DNA of 64,000 bases from Mangrovibacterium marinum (GTDB taxonomy: Bacteria; Bacteroidota; Bacteroidia; Bacteroidales; Prolixibacteraceae): assembly GCF_003046625.1 (NCBI RefSeq), contig NZ_QAAD01000012.1:1-64000 (forward strand), given 5' to 3'. The notes beneath the pieces are model-generated. The model was not told the DNA's origin, searched no databases, and saw only the letters and a list, made by a program, of their open reading frames with translations. How positions within the stretch are numbered: position 1 is the first letter of the stretch; each line of letters opens with the position of its first letter. The translations under genes and the position numbers were made by a program. Positions 13,415-32,209 of the stretch are shown in pieces.

Positions 13415-13822
13415 TCAGTCGAAAGATCCCAGATCAACGAAGTTGTCAGGTTATCGAAAGTTGTCGAAAGTTGTCGGGTTGTCGTTCTAAACCTGACCGA
13501 AGCGATTTCGGCCATTTTTATTGATGGTGACGCGAGAACCTGCTGCTCAGTCCAATCCCGGAGGGATGCTACTGGGGTAGATAAACGCAACAATACTCAA
13601 AATTCCGTCCCGTACGGGACGGTACTGCCATCCTGTCGACTTGCGTGCTACCCAAATGGAATGGCTAAAGCCATTACCGAAAGATGAAAACCTATCCGAC
13701 AGGGAAAAACATCCGCTTTAAGTCGAAAGTTGAAACGAAGAAAGTGATCAGTCCCAGTGTTCAGTCACATTTGTCGAAAGATCCCAGATCAACGAAGTTG
13801 TCAGGTTGTCGAAAGTTGTCGG
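13415..13822. repeat. 50-bp direct repeat flanking a degenerate REP-like copy
   Basis: TCGAAAGATCCCAGATCAACG followed by AAGTTGTCAGGTT[A/G]TCGAAAGTTGTCG occurs at about 13418-13475 and again at 13772-13822. The first copy abuts the end of the hexamer array; the second is preceded by CAGTCCCAGTGTTCAGTCACA, which resembles an unexpanded seed of that array. GTTGTCG words of the same kind recur at 30800-30835. Confidence 0.75.
13551..13710. repeat. REP-like nested-hairpin element, degenerate 5' half
   Basis: Contains AATCCCGGAGGGATG, the palindrome GTCCCGTACGGGAC (13607-13620), GCTACCCAAAT (13646-13656) and ATGGCTAAAGCCATT. It has the same order as the full copies at 25911-26393 and 30931-31403, but the left arm of the outer inverted repeat is changed. 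Confidence 0.75.
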
Positions 13823-14149
13823 TCCACATCTAATGAAAACCAGTTATTGACGTTGCGCCTTAGCGTCTTTGCGTGGTAGACTTTCACAGAAAAAACCTAC
13901 ATGATTCGGAGGGAATCTCCAACAGGGATGAAAGTGGTGGAAGACAGCAGAAGGCATTTAAGAGAAGACGGAAGCTCGCTCGGAGCGGGACCGGCCTACT
14001 TTTTATCGATGGTGAGAGGCGAACCGGAAGCTTAGTGAATCCGGGAAGCTCCGCCGACAGAAGGAGATCACCCGGCTGAACTTAGCTTTCGGAAGCTGAC
14101 ACCTGAAGATAAAAATAAGCCTTGCGTTTTCTGTTTCGTCTTTGGGGCA

Positions 14150-14370
14150 AGCCAAAGATGAAAACCCGTCCGGTAGGACAAAAGATCCGAATTGCGCAAA
14201 AGTAGGAGTGAAAAACAGCCAGTTTTGGGGCAACCCTCATCAGCGCTGGTTTGCTACAAAAGAAGCCTGGCTTCCGGTTGAAGCTGGACCCCTATTCAAT
14301 ACATCCCCGGTGCAGTTTGGAAACCCGGCCTACCGCAGGCATCACCCGAAGAGACTTTCACAGAAAAACA
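14150..14370. repeat. REP-like nested-hairpin element, 3' half copy
   Basis: Runs from AAAGATGAAAACCCGTCCGG through AAAAGTAGGAGTGAAAAACAG and GGTTTGCTACAAAAGAAGCC to GGAAACCCGGCCTACCGCAGG and GAAGAGACTTTCACAG. These are the same ordered words as at about 26160-26390 and 31185-31403. The stretch between the two half copies (13823-14149) shows no gene. Confidence 0.75.
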
Positions 14371-24396: not shown

Positions 24397-25668
24397 ATGA
24401 TATTATTAGCAGCACAATCAACAGTTGTTGTTACCAGCGTGGTCATCTTCCTTTTGGTGATCATCCTGTTGGTTTCAATCCTGTTGTTTGTTAAAAAGAA
24501 ACTGACTCCATCAGGAAAAGTTAAGGTTGACCTGAACGATGGTTATATGGAGATTGAGACAGACCCGGGAAACACCCTGCTATCAACACTAAGCAACAAC
24601 AAAGTTATTTTGCCGTCAGCCTGTGGTGGTGGTGGTACTTGCGGAATGTGCCGTTGTCAGGTTACTGAAGGTGGTGGTTCCATCCTGCCTACCGAAACTG
24701 GTTTCTTTACCCGTAAAGAGCAGGCCGACAACTGGCGTTTAGGTTGCCAGGTGAAGGTGAAAGAAGACATGAAAGTTCACATCCACCAGGAAGTTCTTGG
24801 GGTGAAAAAATGGGAATGCGAAGTGGTTTCCAACCGCAACGTGGCCACTTTCATCAAGGAGTTTGTAGTGAAATTGCCGGAAGGCGAAACACTGGACTTC
24901 AAATCGGGTGGTTATATTCAGATCGACGTACCTAAAATTGATGTCGATTTTAAAGATATGGACATCGATGAGAAATTCCGTTCGGAATGGGAGCAGTTTA
25001 ATATGTTTGACCTGAAGATGAAAAACCCGGAACCAACCTTCCGTGCTTATTCAATGGCCAACCACCCTGCCGAAGGAAACATCATCATGTTGAACATCCG
25101 TATTGCCACACCTCCGTTCGACCGGGTAAACGGTGGCTTCAAGAAAGTAAATCCGGGGGTTTGTTCGTCTTTTATCTTCTCGCGCAAGCCGGGTGATAAA
25201 GTAACCATCTCTGGTCCTTTCGGTGAGTTCTTCCTGAAAAATAACGATAGCGAAATGATGTTTATCGGTGGTGGTGCCGGTATGGCGCCTATGCGCTCTC
25301 ACTTGTTCCACCTGTTCCACACCGTGAAAGAAACCAAGAAAAACGTGACTTTCTGGTACGGAGCACGCTCATGGAAGGAAGTGTTCTACTACGAACAATT
25401 CAAAGAAATCGAGAAAAACTTCCCGAATTTCACCTTCCACCTGGCCTTGGACAAACCCGATCCGGAAGCTGATAAAGCTGATGTTCAATACAAAACAGGC
25501 TTCGTTCACCAGGTAATTTACGACAACTACCTGAGACAACACGAAGAACCGGAAGAGATTGACTACTATATGTGTGGTCCGCCAATGATGAACTCTGCGG
25601 TTCAGAAAATGCTTTACGATCTGGGAGTTCCCGACGAAAACGTCCTGTTCGACGACTTCGGAAGCTAA
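24397..25668 (+). CDS. nqrF: Na+-NQR subunit F (NADH-oxidising flavoprotein)
   Basis: 423 residues, ATG start. An N-terminal membrane helix (residues 8-32) is followed by a 2Fe-2S ferredoxin domain with Cys76, Cys82, Cys85 and Cys117, an FAD domain (FRAYSMANHP), and an NADH domain (FIGGGAGMAPMRSH, YMCGPPMMN). This is the entry point for electrons from NADH. Last gene of the operon, followed by a strong terminator. Confidence 0.98.
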   Translation: MILLAAQSTVVVTSVVIFLLVIILLVSILLFVKKKLTPSGKVKVDLNDGYMEIETDPGNTLLSTLSNNKVILPSACGGGGTCGMCRCQVTEGGGSILPTETGFFTRKEQADNWRLGCQVKVKEDMKVHIHQEVLGVKKWECEVVSNRNVATFIKEFVVKLPEGETLDFKSGGYIQIDVPKIDVDFKDMDIDEKFRSEWEQFNMFDLKMKNPEPTFRAYSMANHPAEGNIIMLNIRIATPPFDRVNGGFKKVNPGVCSSFIFSRKPGDKVTISGPFGEFFLKNNDSEMMFIGGGAGMAPMRSHLFHLFHTVKETKKNVTFWYGARSWKEVFYYEQFKEIEKNFPNFTFHLALDKPDPEADKADVQYKTGFVHQVIYDNYLRQHEEPEEIDYYMCGPPMMNSAVQKMLYDLGVPDENVLFDDFGS

Positions 25669-25690
25669 TCCCGAAAATATTACCTATTCA

Positions 25691-25720
25691 AAAAGAGCTG
25701 CTCATCAGGGCAGCTCTTTT
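25691..25720 (+). terminator. Rho-independent terminator of the nqr operon
   Basis: AAAAGAGCTGC (25691-25701), an 8-nt loop, and GCAGCTCTTTT (25710-25720) running into further T residues: an 11-bp perfect stem starting 22 bp after the nqrF stop. Confidence 0.92.
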
Positions 25721-25910
25721 TCGTTTACGAAAACCCAACTGATACCGCGGGAATATCCAACAGGGATGAAGTCCGAGGATTTTCAGCTGTCCGGTTGTTG
25801 GCTTATCCTCCACCAGATCATCAACCTGCAAGAAGGTCTTCTGATCAATGGGAAAAAATTGGGAACCGGTTGGCCTGGTTTTATCATGGCCGGAATCAAA
25901 CGGAAAGCTT

Positions 25911-26393
25911 CCTGCAATCCCGGAGGGATGCTATTTGGGTAGCTGAACGACTACAGAGGAAAATTCCGTCCCGTACGGGACGGGAGAGTCTGTTGTGTTG
26001 CCTTTGGTGCTACCCAAATTATACCGTTTTGAAGGCTAATTTATGCTATGAAATAGGACGGTATAATGCCGATAGACTGAAAAAGGAGCATTGGAACGAA
26101 GTAATAGGATGCGACACTTTTGAAGCTAATCGGTATTGCATGGCTAAAGCCATTGCTGAAAAATGAAAACCCGTCCGGTAGGACAAAAGATCCGCGTTGA
26201 TCAAAAGTAGGAGAGAAAAACAGCAAGGGTTGGGGTAAGGCCCATCAATACCGGTTTGTTACAAAATGAGCTTTTGCTTCAGGTTCGAGCTGAATCACCA
26301 TTGAAGGCATCCCCGATGCGGATTGGAAACCCTGCCTACCGCAGGCGGGCGCATCACCCAAAGAGACTTTCACCGAAAAAATCTCCACCCGTG
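25911..26393. repeat. REP-like nested-hairpin element, full copy A
   Basis: Starts at CCTGCAATCCCGGAGGGATGC. The outer arms ATTTGGGTAGC (about 25933-25943) and GCTACCCAAAT (26009-26019) are an 11-bp inverted repeat. Between them lies the palindrome GTCCCGTACGGGAC (25968-25981). Then come GCCGATAGACTGAAAAAGGAG, ATGGCTAAAGCCATTGCTG, ACCCGTCCGGTAGGACAAAAG and CCTACCGCAGG...AGAGACTTTC, in the same order and nearly the same spacing as copy B at 30931-31403. It lies in a gene-free stretch (25669-26572); a leader word GGAATATCCAACAGGGATGAA sits at about 25750. No transposase is nearby. Confidence 0.85.
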
Positions 26394-26572
26394 GTATAAG
26401 TGAGCGAACGAGGTGACTATCCATTAATGAGGAGGAGTTGTGGTCCGGCTGACCTGCTTTTATCAACTTTCTCGTCCCGGCAAAACGAAGAGCGGCAAAT
26501 TGGCTATCGGAAATTGAAGCGGATTATCCCCAATTTCGTAAACAAACAGAAAACCGATAAACGTATTTAGAG

Positions 26573-27814
26573 ATGACAACAAGACTATTAACATTCGTAG
26601 TACTCATCTTTGCCCTACTCTTCAGTTGCGGAAAAGATGACGATGATATCGCAGGAGAAGATGTCAATCCAACTGAACTACCAACACAGGGAGGATCGGA
26701 AGAGTATGATCATTCGAACTACGGCACCTACGTTGCCATGATTGCCGGCGGAAGTTACATCGCTGCCGATGCAGCCGCCACGCCTGATTATTTTGGAATT
26801 AGCGGTATGCTGACAATCGCGATCGACCAAAGCACCACGGCAACCTTATGGATTGATGACCAAAAAGAAAGCTTTACCGTTAACCAAAGTCCGACGCTAA
26901 ACAGTGCGATAAACAAGTTACAATTTAACGGCACCAACAATTCCACTTTTTGGTTTTCGGTTGATGCCAACGGAGGGAATCCTGCTATCGACAGCATCAA
27001 GGCTCCGGCTTTTGTACAAACAACGAGCGCCCCAACCTCCGGGGAAAATCCATTGCACGGAACAGTCCTAAAAAGCACATCGGACAATCCGGTAGCCGTT
27101 TATACCGGTGAAGCAATATTCAGTCTGCGCCCACATACCAAAGTATGCGCCATAACCAAAGGTGGAAATTGCTACTTTGATTTTGGAGGAACATATCGTT
27201 CTTACGATTTCGGAGCCGAGTGCATCGCAGCAAGCCTGCTGTTTAATGACATTAGTTACAACGCCGGAGGGAAAACACTTAACGCGACCATTCACGACGA
27301 GATGGTTCTGTCGGGATCAATCAACTCCGATTTAGGACTAGTCCCCTTCAGCTTGCTTAATACAGCGGCGATCCCCGAGTTTAAACTGCTATTGAGCGAT
27401 CCGGCCAACGACAATAGTCCGGCAGGTATTCCCGGATCCGACTTCAGAACTGTTTCGGCCTTAGCCACGGAGAACTATGTTTGCATCAAAGTTAGCACCA
27501 GCGGTAATATCGCCGATTTTCTCGAAGACAACAGTTCCGGTCTGTCGACAAACTTCATCCTATGGACCCCCTCCGAGGTTGACGACGTATTTGTTGGCCG
27601 CGACGAAGCAATGATAAAAAAAACAGACAATTCGTTTGTTTCATTCGCGCAGACAAACAATTATGCTGTTCGAGGCACCACGTCGTTCTATGTATTTCTG
27701 GATAAACAATGGTGCGTTGACAGTGCAAACGAATTTGAATTTAGCCTCGCATCAAACTACACAATATCGGATGCCTATGACACAACAGACAACATCATTT
27801 TAAAAATAAAATAA
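26573..27814 (+). CDS. Lipoprotein of unknown function
   Basis: 413 residues, ATG start. An SPII signal peptide ends at LLFSC with lipidated Cys19, followed by a very acidic linker (GKDDDDIAGEDVN). The rest is a Ser/Thr/Asn-rich, beta-type domain with cysteines at CAITKGGNCYFDF and CVDSANEF. I do not recognise a family. It is bracketed by REP-like repeats and has no operon partner; base use looks less biased than in neighbouring core genes, so horizontal origin is possible but untested. Location at the outer membrane or periplasm is inferred from the lipobox. Confidence 0.75.
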   Translation: MTTRLLTFVVLIFALLFSCGKDDDDIAGEDVNPTELPTQGGSEEYDHSNYGTYVAMIAGGSYIAADAAATPDYFGISGMLTIAIDQSTTATLWIDDQKESFTVNQSPTLNSAINKLQFNGTNNSTFWFSVDANGGNPAIDSIKAPAFVQTTSAPTSGENPLHGTVLKSTSDNPVAVYTGEAIFSLRPHTKVCAITKGGNCYFDFGGTYRSYDFGAECIAASLLFNDISYNAGGKTLNATIHDEMVLSGSINSDLGLVPFSLLNTAAIPEFKLLLSDPANDNSPAGIPGSDFRTVSALATENYVCIKVSTSGNIADFLEDNSSGLSTNFILWTPSEVDDVFVGRDEAMIKKTDNSFVSFAQTNNYAVRGTTSFYVFLDKQWCVDSANEFEFSLASNYTISDAYDTTDNIILKIK

Positions 27815-27846
27815 CGGCCAAATAGCTGTATCTCCAAGCCCGAAGA

Positions 27847-28044
27847 ATGAATAAGCGCCAACGAAGGAAAGCTATCGTGGCGAGCTTTTTTCAGAAAATA
27901 AATCAGGACTCACCGGTGATCATGGACAAAGCAGGAAATATGCTGTCATCCTTTCTGATCTCCCGAAAAGCCGTTTTGTCCGAACAGCCTGTCATTTCGC
28001 TTATTTTCAACCTGAAATCCGTTTATGATCGGGATATGAATTGA
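27847..28044 (+). CDS. Possible small basic protein, doubtful
   Basis: 65 codons from an ATG (MNKRQRRKAIVASFF). No family, no membrane segment and no promoter box are recognised. It fills part of the 293-bp gap between the lipoprotein and the L,D-transpeptidase, which otherwise holds nothing visible. It may be a chance open frame. Confidence 0.2.
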   Translation: MNKRQRRKAIVASFFQKINQDSPVIMDKAGNMLSSFLISRKAVLSEQPVISLIFNLKSVYDRDMN

Positions 28045-28100
28045 CCGAGAATTTTAAAATTATTAACACGCTACCCTATCGCATATCAATATTAATTCAC

Positions 28101-28108
28101 TAGTTTTG
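28101..28108 (+). promoter_or_regulatory. Candidate -7 box of the YkuD_2 gene
   Basis: TAGTTTTG matches TAnnTTTG and lies 12 bp before the ATG at 28120. No clear -33 TTG was found at the usual distance. A transcript from here would have a very short leader. Confidence 0.4.
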
Positions 28109-28119
28109 TGGCAATTGTA

Positions 28120-28794
28120 ATGGATATGCGCAGAGGGATACTTTTTTTCACTTTATTTTCGATTGTTTTTATTGGGATTTTGATCCTACCACCGATGTCG
28201 GAAAACCGGCAGGACCGGCTTGCTGCTGCGGCCAATGCAGATAGCTTATTTGTGCAGTATTCGGCCTTGAAACTGAATAACAGATTACCCTACCCGGTAT
28301 TTGCCCGGGCAGTAAAAGGCCTCGACCAGTTTCACTTCAACAATAAAAAAGTACTGACCATCATCGACTACAGCCGCCCTTCGACTGAAAAACGACTATT
28401 TGTACTTGATTTATCGCAGAATAAAGTCTTATTCGAAAGCTTAGTTGCCCATGGCAAAAATTCGGGGATGGATTATGCCACCCAATTTTCGAACAAGCCA
28501 CAGTCGTTGAAAAGCAGCCCCGGCTTTTATGCCACAGCTGAAACTTATCAGGGTAAGCATGGTTACTCGCTGCGACTGGACGGCCTCGAGAAGGGAGTCA
28601 ACGATCATGCCCGCCAACGTGCCATTGTCATGCATTCGGCCGCCTATGTGTCGGAGCAGTTTATCCAAAGCACGGGGCGCTTAGGACGAAGCTGGGGGTG
28701 CCCGGCCCTGCCCGACAAGCTGAACAAAGACATTATTGATTGCATCAAAAACGGCACCTGCCTGTACATCTACACCAATGCTACTACCGCCTGA
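28120..28794 (+). CDS. Murein L,D-transpeptidase catalytic domain protein (YkuD_2 family)
   Basis: 224 residues from the ATG at 28120; a GTG at 28108 falls in the -7 box and an ATG at 28126 is possible. One N-terminal membrane helix or signal anchor (GILFFTLFSIVFIGILIL). The YkuD_2 catalytic segment is visible as RAIVMHSAAYVS (His) and GRSWGCPALP (Cys), separated by about 25 residues. It probably forms or edits 3-3 cross-links or attaches partners to peptidoglycan in the periplasm; the exact reaction is not established for this subfamily. A second, unrelated-type L,D-transpeptidase is encoded 170 bp away on the other strand. Confidence 0.88.
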   Translation: MDMRRGILFFTLFSIVFIGILILPPMSENRQDRLAAAANADSLFVQYSALKLNNRLPYPVFARAVKGLDQFHFNNKKVLTIIDYSRPSTEKRLFVLDLSQNKVLFESLVAHGKNSGMDYATQFSNKPQSLKSSPGFYATAETYQGKHGYSLRLDGLEKGVNDHARQRAIVMHSAAYVSEQFIQSTGRLGRSWGCPALPDKLNKDIIDCIKNGTCLYIYTNATTA

Positions 28795-28963
28795 TTTTTC
28801 AGGAATACCGATACGCAGAGGCGCCACGCCGCCAGGTCGTCAAGTGACTTTGCTCATGTTCGGGCTGACAACGACTGACAACAGGATATCCGAAAATTCC
28901 CAACTTTCATCGCTAATGGTGCTGCTCAAAAACCGGCTCCACAAGCTTCGCGTGTTTTGATGC

Positions 28964-30667
28964 TTAAAAGGCCTTTTCGTTGAAACGCGGCTGGCTTTTA
29001 GCGTCCAACTGACGGAGTACGGGTTCATCGCGCCGGTAAATATCGGGATAGAAAATCAGCTTGCCGGTTTCGTCATAGCCAATAGTCCAATACAACACCA
29101 TCACATCGACCTGTTTGGCCGGATAGGCGCGGATAGTTTGTCCCGATTGCAGGATGGTGTCGATTCGAGCCCGGTCATAGTCCGTTCCTTCGAGCAAGAC
29201 AGCAGCCAGTGCCAGCGGGTTTTGAATACGAATGCAGCCGTGGCTAAAAGCTCGTTGACTCTCGCCGAACAGTTTTTTCGACGGTGTGTCGTGCATAAAA
29301 ACTGAATATTTGTTCGGGAAGGTCAATTTGACAAGTCCCAGCGCATTCCAGGCGCCCGGGCGCTGACGGACAACATAGGGAAAGCTGGCCAAGCTAGCTT
29401 GACTAAAATCGATGGTTGCCGGATTCAACTTTTTCCCTGCCCGATCCAACAGATCGAAATGATTTTTGCTCAAATAGGCCGGGTCCTTTTTCAGTTCAGG
29501 CAGAATGCTCGTTCGGATAATCGAGCGCGGGACAATCCAGGGCGGATTAAATTCAACGTACTCCAGCCGCGATTTAAACACCGGTGTTCTGGTGTAAGGC
29601 CTTCCTACCTGAACCCTGGACGTATAGCGCAGCTTTGTACCATCGACGTAATAAATTTTAAAAGCCGGAATATTGACTACAATATAACAGTCGCTGAGAT
29701 TGGATACCACCCAGCGTACCCGTTCCATATTGACGCGGATTTTGCCCAGGAGAAAATCAGCCGACTGATTGAGTGCTTCGCGTGTTTGAGGACCCACAAC
29801 ACCATCGGGCGTCAATCCGTTTGCCTGCTGAAAGCGGACGACGTCAGCCACCAGCGCATCATCATAAAATAGGCTCTGCGTATCGGCCGACAGCTGGCCT
29901 GTTTGCTGCAAGCGTTTGCGGATTTGGAGCACGGCGCTGTCCTGGTCTCCTGCTTCCAGCCAGCGTGTGCCGCCAACAGTTTGCCACGCTACGGTGTCCT
30001 TCTCTTTCGCATAATGCTGCAGCAGCTCACGATACGCCTGGTAGATTTCCAGCCGTGGGCGCAGGCGAGCAAGACTTCCCGCAACGTCCTTGGCGGCAAT
30101 CGCTTGTTCCAGCTTGGCGGGCACGCCCTCTTCCAGATCGCGCGAGCTGTAGTTCCACTTTTGATCCAGCGACTCCGGATTGACTTTCCCCTCGAGCAGA
30201 TGGTAAGCGTAAAGGAGTACCGCATCAGTCACCAGAATATCGAAACGGGCAACAGCCTGATAATCGATATAATCGCCACCAAGCATCCCCTGGAGATCAT
30301 GGGCCACAGCTTGAATTGTGGGTGCATGATAATCTGTCGGGGTCAGGCCATCTTCCCACGAATGGTTTAAAGCCTGCGCCGCATCAAGCAAAGTTGAAAA
30401 ATCAGACCACGCCGGTTTATAGGCACGTTTCCGGTAAAATTCGGGCAATATTTCTTCTGCCGAAATCAGCTCATCTCCAAACTGTAATTCCTTGCCGGCT
30501 GCCGCCTGCGCCAACGCCTCCTGAATCGCCAGGCTGATCTGCTCCTGATTGCGATAAATTTGCCGGTGAGCCCTTACATTCGTGCTATCGGCCCTGTAGG
30601 CATACAGCTTCGGCATTCCCGAAAACATCAGAACCGCAAAAACCAGGATATGGAGCAGTGCATTCAT
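28964..30667 (-). CDS. L,D-transpeptidase of the YcbB/LdtD type
   Basis: 567 residues, ATG start, signal peptide (LLHILVFAVLMFSGMPKLYA). Domain order: N-terminal scaffold domain (about 45-260), peptidoglycan-binding helices (FYDDALVADVVRFQQANGL..GVVGPQTREALNQ, about 270-305), then the YkuD catalytic domain (about 330-510) with VFMHDTPSK and the catalytic SHGCIRIQNP. It makes 3-3 cross-links between meso-diaminopimelate residues, as LdtD does. It stands alone; REP-like copy B lies upstream of its start. Confidence 0.94.
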   Translation of the reverse strand: MNALLHILVFAVLMFSGMPKLYAYRADSTNVRAHRQIYRNQEQISLAIQEALAQAAAGKELQFGDELISAEEILPEFYRKRAYKPAWSDFSTLLDAAQALNHSWEDGLTPTDYHAPTIQAVAHDLQGMLGGDYIDYQAVARFDILVTDAVLLYAYHLLEGKVNPESLDQKWNYSSRDLEEGVPAKLEQAIAAKDVAGSLARLRPRLEIYQAYRELLQHYAKEKDTVAWQTVGGTRWLEAGDQDSAVLQIRKRLQQTGQLSADTQSLFYDDALVADVVRFQQANGLTPDGVVGPQTREALNQSADFLLGKIRVNMERVRWVVSNLSDCYIVVNIPAFKIYYVDGTKLRYTSRVQVGRPYTRTPVFKSRLEYVEFNPPWIVPRSIIRTSILPELKKDPAYLSKNHFDLLDRAGKKLNPATIDFSQASLASFPYVVRQRPGAWNALGLVKLTFPNKYSVFMHDTPSKKLFGESQRAFSHGCIRIQNPLALAAVLLEGTDYDRARIDTILQSGQTIRAYPAKQVDVMVLYWTIGYDETGKLIFYPDIYRRDEPVLRQLDAKSQPRFNEKAF

Positions 30668-30930
30668 CAGTAAAGTGTATTAATAGCCGCCATGCTTGCT
30701 ACAAATTACGCATTCGCCAACGCAAACACAAGCGTGTGCCGGAGAATCGCCAACAAGGATGGAAGTGGAAGATTTTTGGTGATCGGGTATTAGAAGTTCT
30801 CGGGTTGTCGTTGTTGTCAAAAGTTGTCGTTCTAAACGCCATCAACAAGCAAGAAAGCCGTTCGATCAATGCCAAAAAGTCTGGAATCAGTTGGCCTATT
30901 TTTAAGAGGCCGAAATCAAACAAAAAGCTT

Positions 30931-31403
30931 CCTGCAATCCCGGAGGGATGCAATTTGGGTAGCTTTGGCATTTGCGTGGGTAAAATTTCGTCCCGTACGG
31001 GAGGGGACAATCTTCGTGTTATCGTTTGTGCTACCCAAATTATACCGTTGCACAGGCTAAATTTATACTCTGAAATAGGATGGTATAATGCCGATAGACT
31101 GAAAAAGGAGCATTGAAACGAAGTGATTGGATGCGACACTTTTGAAGCTAATCGGTATTGAATGGCTAAAGCCATTGCTGAAAAATGAAAACCCGTCCGG
31201 TAGGACAAAAGATTCAAATTGAGCAAAAGTAGGAGTGAAAAACAGCTCGGTTTGGGGTAAGGCCCATCAATACCGGTTTGCTACAGAATGAGGCTTTGCT
31301 CCTGATTCAAACTCAATCGCAAATCAAGGCATCCCCGATGCGGTTTGGAAACCCGGCCTACCGCAGGCAGGCACATCACCCGAAGAGACTTTCGCAGAAA
31401 AAA
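30931..31403. repeat. REP-like nested-hairpin element, full copy B
   Basis: The outer arms AATTTGGGTAGC (30952-30963) and GCTACCCAAATT (31030-31041) are a perfect 12-bp inverted repeat around the near-palindrome GTCCCGTACGGGAG (30990-31003). The downstream words match copy A in order and spacing (copy A 483 bp, copy B 473 bp). The leader word AATCGCCAACAAGGATGGAAGT at about 30746 and a GTTGTCG run at 30800-30835 resemble parts of the 13.4-14.0 kb region. The whole 30668-31406 stretch has no credible gene. Confidence 0.85.
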
Positions 31404-31498: not shown

Positions 31499-32209
31499 TT
31501 AGGCGATGTTTGTAAACACGTGTTGCACATCGTCGTCTTCTTCAATTTTATCGAGTAATTTCTCGATGTCTTCCAGCTGTTCGTCGGTAAATTCAACCGG
31601 CGTTGTCGGGATACGCTTCAGCACCGCTTTCTTAACGTCGATCTGTTTATCTTCCAGGGCTTTCGAAAGCGTCCCAAAGCTTGTATAATCGCCTGTCACA
31701 TAAACCATGTCCTCTTCCACTTCAATTTCTTCCAGACCGGCATCAATCAGCTCCAGCTCCATCTCTTCGATATCGATGGCATCCGTTTTTTCGAACTCGA
31801 AAACAGCTTTGCGTGCAAACATGAACTCCAATGAACCTGTTGGCACCATACTGCCACCTGATTTATTGAAATACGACTTCACATTGGCTACGGTACGGGT
31901 TGTATTGTCGGTTGCACATTCCACAAAAACCAATACGCCATGTGGTCCTTTACCTTCGTAATTGACCTCCGAGAAATCGGAGGCATCTTTACCTGCCGCC
32001 CGTTTGATGGCCGAGTCGATGTTATCCTTCGGCATATTTTGGGCTTTTGCGTTCTGGATGGCAGTACGCAATTTCGCATTCATATCCGGATCTTGTCCGC
32101 CTTCTTTTGCGGCCATTGTAATAGCCCTTGATAATTTCGGAAAAATCCGGGACATGTGGCCCCAACGCTTTTCTTTGGCGGCCCGGCGATATTCAAATGC
32201 TCTTCCCAC
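31499..32209 (-). CDS. YebC/PmpR-family regulator or translation factor
   Basis: 236 residues with a GTG start at 32209; the conserved N-terminus [16 protein letters not shown] begins there, which decides the start. Conserved blocks include [32 protein letters not shown] and YEGKGPHGV. The family was annotated as DNA-binding regulators; recent work links members to relief of ribosome stalling at proline-rich stretches, so the precise role here is open. Monocistronic by appearance, with a terminator after it. Confidence 0.95.

Follow-up and report, generated by a model that had tools for sequence, protein, structure and literature searches.

A probable mosaic of nested non-autonomous mobile elements in Mangrovibacterium marinum, with a core of the MITE kind that is shared with related Bacteroidota

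Introduction

ERIC duplicates a TA target, and the Tourist/PIF-Harbinger MITEs and the IS1031 group of IS5 make three-base duplications, TWA or TNA; tyrosine (Y1/RAYT) transposases are, to our knowledge, not known to make target duplications. In the excerpted texts of PMC3733652 and PMC2267715, ERIC and other bacterial MITEs (NEMIS, RUP, Nezha and EFAR) are presented as short, non-coding, palindromic and intergenic. ERIC consists of one long stem-loop of 127 bp, and the Efa-1 and Pae-1 families are described as a pair of adjacent stem-loops (PMC2267715, excerpted text). The MITEs of Porphyromonas gingivalis (BrickBuilt, MITE239, MITEPgRS/464 and MITE700) have ends of the form GAGAC.. or ACGT.., which resemble the ends of IS5-type ISPg elements (PMC4596501, excerpted text), and REPs carry a GTAG or CGTC tag (PMC3733652, excerpted text).

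Here we analysed a 64,000-nucleotide stretch of the M. marinum genome, referred to as the window, in which a sequence-only reading had pointed to one interspersed nested-hairpin element. With a probability of about three in four, we regard the feature as a mosaic of nested non-autonomous mobile elements, the core of which, X, is a miniature transposon of the MITE kind. Like ERIC and the other bacterial MITEs of the excerpts above, X is short, non-coding, palindromic and intergenic, and like Efa-1 and Pae-1 it has two adjacent stem-loops. Where ERIC forms one long stem-loop, X has a pair of hairpins that share a central box, along with TACC ends and TWA flanks, and its hosts are Bacteroidota. 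It belongs to the same phylum as the P. gingivalis MITEs, but its TACC ends, compared with the excerpted descriptions of those elements, are different and match no insertion sequence examined here. The TWA flanks are shared with Tourist/PIF-Harbinger and IS1031, although no DDE_Tnp_1 gene with X ends was seen among those examined and the duplication of X may be one base. The feature also resembles REP/REPIN/BIME arrays in being a mosaic of short extragenic palindromes, and RAYT genes with similar hairpins are present; however, the flanks of X point to a duplication and its ends are not the GTAG or CGTC tag of the excerpted REP description. By eye, GTAG lies inside the arms (GGGTAGC) and in GTCCGGTAGGAC, and not as an unpaired tag. 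MITEs, including the two-stem-loop families and those of Porphyromonas, are a kind already known and, measured against these excerpted accounts, X is a new variety of them.

Results

Layout of the repeat

When positions 25501-26600 were searched by blastn against the window itself, copy A (25819-26381) and copy B (30840-31403) aligned with 84.6% identity over 566 columns. Their similarity begins near 25819, to the left of the start given in the sequence-only reading. Shorter matches lie at 14154-14368 (79.7%), 13553-13657 (77.6%) and 13661-13730 (80%), and a 41-bp piece at 13892-13932 matches as well. The conserved words that had been listed were found by position search where they had been placed: GGAGGGATG at 13560, 25922 and 30942, TTTGGGTAGC at 25934 and 30954, GCTACCCAAA at 13647, 26009 and 31030, and CCTACCGCAGG at 14329, 26335 and 31357. 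The palindrome GTCCCGTACGGGAC, which had been assigned to both full copies, is exact at 13607 and 25968, and the second full copy reads GTCCCGTACGGGAG instead.

The description of an interspersed, nested-hairpin, non-coding repeat with two full copies, larger than a REP, therefore holds. That of a single element does not, as the feature is made of nested modules (Table 1). The partial copies reported at 13.5-14.4 kb are indeed matches but are not one kind of half; they are a module M without X and a Y element with its tail.

Table 1. Features of the nested repeat in the window
Feature	Positions	Strand	Basis or remark
Module M without X: ...GCTACCCAAAT-GG-AATGGCTAAAGCC	13551..13730	+	sequence
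Complete Y core, rod of ~130 nt	13993..14122	+	located by eye; family alignment and fold
Right block/tail of the Y element at 13993..14122	14154..14368	+	BLAST matches
Y left arm, right arm missing (GGCC...-type hairpin and GGAAAGCTT)	25872..25910	+	same words open complete Y cores in L071, L076, L093 and others
Short REP-like palindrome ATCCCGGAGGGAT	25917..25929	+	every pair retained in at least 33 of the 34 aligned copies
Module M, copy A: arms ATTTGGGTAGC / GCTACCCAAAT around the GTCCCGTACGGGAC palindrome (25968-25981)	25933..26019	+	sequence and M alignment
TTA left of X copy A	26019..26021	+	right counterpart 26136-26138 is TTG, an inexact duplicate
X copy A, probable miniature transposon, TACC...GGTA, 114 bp, two hairpins	26022..26135	+	R1 match 26066-26137
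REP-like palindrome ATGGCTAAAGCCAT	26140..26153	+	sequence
Right block: GTCCGGTAGGAC hairpin (26173-26184) and tail with CCTACCGCAGG (26335-26345)	26159..26380	+	matches covering query 280-501 only, i.e. block also alone in the genome
Y left arm, copy B	30893..30930	+	sequence
Module M, copy B; inner palindrome one base off, GTCCCGTACGGGAG	30953..31040	+	sequence and M alignment
X copy B, 115 bp, flanks TTA (31040-31042) / TTG (31158-31160)	31043..31157	+	X search
GGCTAAAGCC palindrome, GTCCGGTAGGAC hairpin and tail, copy B	31164..31403	+	sequence and blastn

The nest as a whole had at least 76 BLAST matches in the 4.6-Mb source genome, a lower bound since 40 of the 158 first-look candidates were scored. 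The pattern CCCGTACGGGA occurred at 46 genome sites, versus 0 for a reversed control pattern. Counts of this size are not due to chance. Many nest matches span only query positions 1-346 or only 280-501, which suggests that the parts move or recombine separately. Besides its own genome, the nest query matched nine of 99 relatives, by fragments only: fragment 185-258, which is X, in two genomes (G053 and G039), fragment 1-43, part of Y, in three (G048, G002 and G025), and fragment 279-349, also part of Y, in four (G003, G019, G051 and G035). At six loci (L009, L010, L015, L131, L137 and L138), a further module of ~55 bp (TTCACATTC.AAAATGCTATAAAGAAAAGAAACAG.GTGATGTTTCTTAA) sits within the loop of a GGCCT...AGGCC hairpin, another level of nesting. 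Degenerate short-repeat tracts of the AACGACAACCCGACAACT type border nests at three loci of the source genome (L014, L027 and L028).

Copy A has as neighbours a gene for a 2Fe-2S/FAD/NAD oxidoreductase (24397-25668) and an ORF without a Pfam match (26573-27814), and copy B an L,D-transpeptidase gene (28964-30667, minus strand) and a YebC-type gene (31499-32209, minus strand). Mechanical ORFs of 123-175 codons overlap both copies, each of which has one frame open across the module, a different frame in each; this counts against a MITE reading. Repeats that are moderately diverged and clustered between genes could be the remains of one degraded insertion sequence or gene, but 24 of 26 genome copies have no frame open from one end of the module to the other, and the parts recur in other genera, each conserved as a discrete unit of its own. 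We consider such an origin very improbable.

A plasmid search with the nest and a phage search with one X copy gave no match, and neither did two exact pattern scans of viral contigs. Rfam 15 had 0 matches at the gathering threshold in the window and, on 15 loci with X, Y or the nest, just two weak matches at E<=1, both outside the elements. X and Y were not found described in the open-licence literature, a body without most subscription journals.

The X element and its distribution

X is 114-127 bp long and consists of two adjacent hairpins with ends TACC...GGTA, which were built into the search used for the length and flank counts, and with TTA or TAA as flanks. Its terminal inverted repeats are four bases strictly and longer with mismatches. 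The retrieved copies have the boxes TACCAATTGT, ACAATGGTTAATGCCGAT and ATCGGTA in common, and the hairpins between the boxes vary. Across 29 diverse copies from several genera (alignment A3, 25 of 34 copies and four others), the fold has 31 pairs, 18 of which are changed on both sides. In this alignment, 93.4% of the cells are paired versus 77.0% in shuffled controls, with 0 of 500 shuffles as high, and the covariation score is 0.398 versus 0.117; control structures slid along the alignment were at most 47% paired. The first, narrower alignment of the right hairpin (A2, 17 of 28 rows used) had no pair changed on both sides. The hairpins of X vary in sequence yet keep their pairing.

A covariance model of the right hairpin (R1) detected 28 sites in the source genome, of which 27 scored strongly and correspond to the 27 nests (L007-L033). 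At E<=0.01 it matched 29 of 140 family genomes, own included, with up to 33 matches in one genome; this count includes three weak matches (L167, L168 and L170) that are not X-like by eye and are possibly due to chance. At E<=0.001, a full-length model (R2) had matches in 43 of the 393 genomes searched from the order, the source genome among them, and these 43 belong to 35 of 207 genera and, as counted from the genome table, to 28 family labels; eight candidates per genome were scored, so that copy numbers are lower bounds. Several of the 30 X loci inspected sat at contig ends and were unreadable at the expected place. Five named contigs carry the exact X pattern; they come from a Prolixibacteraceae MAG, Draconibacterium mangrovi and D. 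orientale. In one genome (G013), eight further places are 99-100% identical to an X copy over 130-137 bp, approximately the element and both triplets, and such near-identical copies at unrelated places point to recent movement.

The Y family

The Y cores (alignment A4, 26 of 33 cores used) fold as one rod of 41 pairs, 23 of them changed on both sides across genera; 97.0% are paired versus 84.1% in shuffled controls, and 0 of 500 shuffles were as high. A kissing-loop structure considered for Y was replaced by this one long rod once the alignment was folded. A Y query from a same-genus genome matched 18 of 99 relatives besides its own genome (E<=0.001), some by short pieces only. In copies A and B of the window, the M-X block occupies the place of the remaining Y core, between the Y left arm and the GTCCGGTAGGAC hairpin.

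Complete Y elements at four Draconibacterium-group loci (L122, L123, L124 and L127) have, by eye, a similar hairpin at each end, inverted and a few hundred bases apart (CCTATCAGGC...CAAGGCTG-like and CAGCCTTG...CCGGCAGG-like), and these inverted end hairpins suggest that Y may be a second, larger mobile element. At two further loci (L132 and L133; G000:C2:4300-6300 and C3:223300-225200), Y units stand head to tail and have a common linker with CTCTCCCCTGAATTAAATCAATCC...GAGCGGGG hairpins; here unequal crossing-over looks possible.

Target sites of X

Outside M, 65 of 77 X places have TWA on both sides (39 TTA/TTA, 18 TAA/TAA and 8 mixed), and the triplet is the same on both sides in 57 of these 65, versus 35.8 expected (Fisher p 4e-9). 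For this count, two of 79 places had been set aside beforehand as lying in M; none was set aside before the later merging of places with similar flanks, after which 64 X places remained. In the merged set, TWA is found on both sides at 53 places, with the same triplet in 48 of them (31 TTA/TTA and 17 TAA/TAA; Fisher p 3e-9) and mixed triplets in five, and 11 of the 64 are without TWA on a side. Of the 64 merged places, 61-62 retain the outer T and A, and the next positions are mixed. Since the left and right triplets agree while the middle base varies, at least the middle base is duplicated; a one-base and a three-base duplication look alike here because the outer T and A are nearly invariant. 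Similar X copies of G013 carry either triplet (L301 and L325 versus L313 and L321), and the triplet is thus a property of the target and not of the subfamily. In the source genome, X stands outside M on two contigs, C23 (TAA/TAA) and C6 (TTA/TTA). X therefore has the target-site duplication of a MITE, one or three bases in length, and the M site is not clean in this respect.

These flanks bear on two other accounts of the feature. The first takes the feature in its entirety to be a large mosaic of the REP/REPIN/BIME type that Y1/RAYT enzymes move via single-stranded hairpins, without target duplication. Agreement of the triplets in 48 of 53 merged copies is unexpected for duplication-free insertion, and near-identical copies of one G013 subfamily carrying TTA/TTA or TAA/TAA also speak against it. 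This account has lost weight because the left and right triplets of X vary together, and we judge it unlikely, with further evidence on both sides given below.

According to the second account, X and Y are repeated by coincidence and are in fact structured RNAs with a regulatory or sRNA-like role. The very strong covariation in both families would suit such RNAs, as would the fact that single sequences fold well (z -3.4 to -4.8 in the five examined). The downstream genes, however, are by eye unrelated (e.g., DUF368-like, nif-type and lysS genes near L068, L082 and L069), copies A and B of the window have different genes as neighbours, and transposition is indicated by flank triplets that agree and by near-identical copies lying at unrelated places. 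Repeated RNAs alone are an improbable explanation, although X or Y may act as RNAs as well as being mobile.

Module M and the X insertion site

In copies A and B, X follows the right arm of M in the arrangement CCCAAATTA-X-TTG-AATGGCTAAAGCC. The 27 filled M sites comprise 21 TTA/TTG, three TTA/TTA (L020, L027 and L319), two TTA/TAT and one TGA/TTG; L319 carries a different type of X at this site and L027/L311 a chimera, in both cases between TTA triplets. Five M forms are without X, namely CCCAAATTGAATGG (second copies in L024 and L028), CCCAAATATAATGG (L137 and L138) and CCCAAATGGAATGG (window 13640-13670). They read TTG (two), TAT (two) and TGG (one), none reading TTA or TAA, and their length is that expected from the removal of X and three bases. 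For the TTG and TAT forms, a duplication of one base or none is no worse a fit than one of three bases. The X-less forms are paralogous copies and could also stem from recombination or excision.

M-site forms without a clean TWA duplication weigh against a MITE reading and for movement by RAYT enzymes, as the X-less sites can be read as a TATACC...GGTAT insertion without duplication. They are also compatible with duplication-free insertion of the IS200/IS605 type, against which the genome-wide X flanks speak.

The arms and palindromes of M are kept in 34 own-genome copies (alignment A5; from 42 candidates, with six false, one short and one duplicate left out), in which 96.2% of the cells are paired. 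None of the 24 pairs is changed on both sides, and the score equals that of the shuffled control. The M palindromes are conserved as sequence, and the retention of their arms is not in itself evidence for structural selection. The selection on structure proposed in the sequence-only reading is therefore seen for X and Y, which covary across genera, but not for the palindromes that it had named. By eye, the M palindromes resemble hairpins beside several RAYT genes of the same family, and an affiliation with REPs may be correct for the REP-like palindromes that surround X.

Search for a helper transposase

The search for a helper covered PF01797 (Y1) and PF01609 (DDE_Tnp_1) only. Neither had a match in the window stretch of the own genome, in agreement with the earlier remark that the window holds no transposase. 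The source genome has six Y1_Tnp matches and six Draconibacterium-group genomes together have 42, and by eye several RAYT genes of the latter are flanked by hairpins of a similar style (e.g., GGGCTAAAGCCC and GTCCCGTAGGGAC), like ATGGCTAAAGCCAT and GTCCCGTACGGGAC of the window; both observations favour a mosaic moved by RAYT. Matches to the Y1_Tnp domain of the REP-associated transposases that had been suggested as something to look for are present elsewhere in the genome. In a word search of 36 Y1 loci, however, none had the left, centre and right boxes of X bracketing the gene, single boxes being scattered in some, and RAYT was rejected as the helper of X on this count.

Two RAYT loci deserve mention. 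One, a single case outside the 36, has a RAYT-type gene of ~186 codons with an X copy 57 bp downstream (L381, G128:C1:5013500-5016500). The other has a partial RAYT match, a remnant, within the same kind of mosaic and with hairpins of its own (L006, G000:C1:120716-120877). Both count in favour of the RAYT account.

The DDE_Tnp_1 loci examined were 41 of 75 matches in three genomes (30 and 11 more) and all four in G013. None of these 45 had X end words on both sides, several having one word on one side, and one genome (G204) has eight X matches yet no PF01609 match; DDE_Tnp_1 of the IS5/IS1031 type was therefore rejected as the helper of X. In eight stretches around X end words, no gene was bracketed by X ends. 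An autonomous element with the same ends, as expected for a MITE, was not found among the 36 Y1 and 45 DDE_Tnp_1 loci. Together with the M-site duplication that is not clean and the flanks that are mixed (5/53) or without TWA (11/64), this stands against the MITE reading.

Discussion

If X is a miniature transposon of the MITE kind, which is the reading that we favour, a candidate transposase would act in trans, binding the ends of X and perhaps the central box. This enzyme would cut at T-W-A targets and duplicate one to three bases; the duplication would be of three bases if the unit is TACC...GGTA and of one if the unit is ATACC...GGTAT. In the source genome, X would have landed at the right arm of module M, with M standing in place of the Y core. 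The whole nest may then have spread as a composite to ~27 places, through its own mobility, the mobility of Y, or recombination between repeats.

A bolder proposal, which we regard as possible but doubtful, is that X, and perhaps Y, represents a class of folded mobile elements spread through the order, whose movement depends on a transposase or recombinase that has not yet been tied to any MITE, with recognition via the hairpins and with selection keeping structure rather than end sequence. If this is true, an unusual cut would have left the minimal duplicated base at T-W-A as its trace.

X combines a fold conserved over 28 family labels of one order and recent activity with no helper among the loci examined, which makes it unusual and testable. 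An enzyme search by co-occurrence would have a defined target, two structural modules and a large number of genomes to work with. Y is a second strongly covarying structure without an Rfam match within the loci scanned. The nesting of these elements accounts for intergenic repeats in Prolixibacteraceae and shows palindromic elements building larger apparent "elements".
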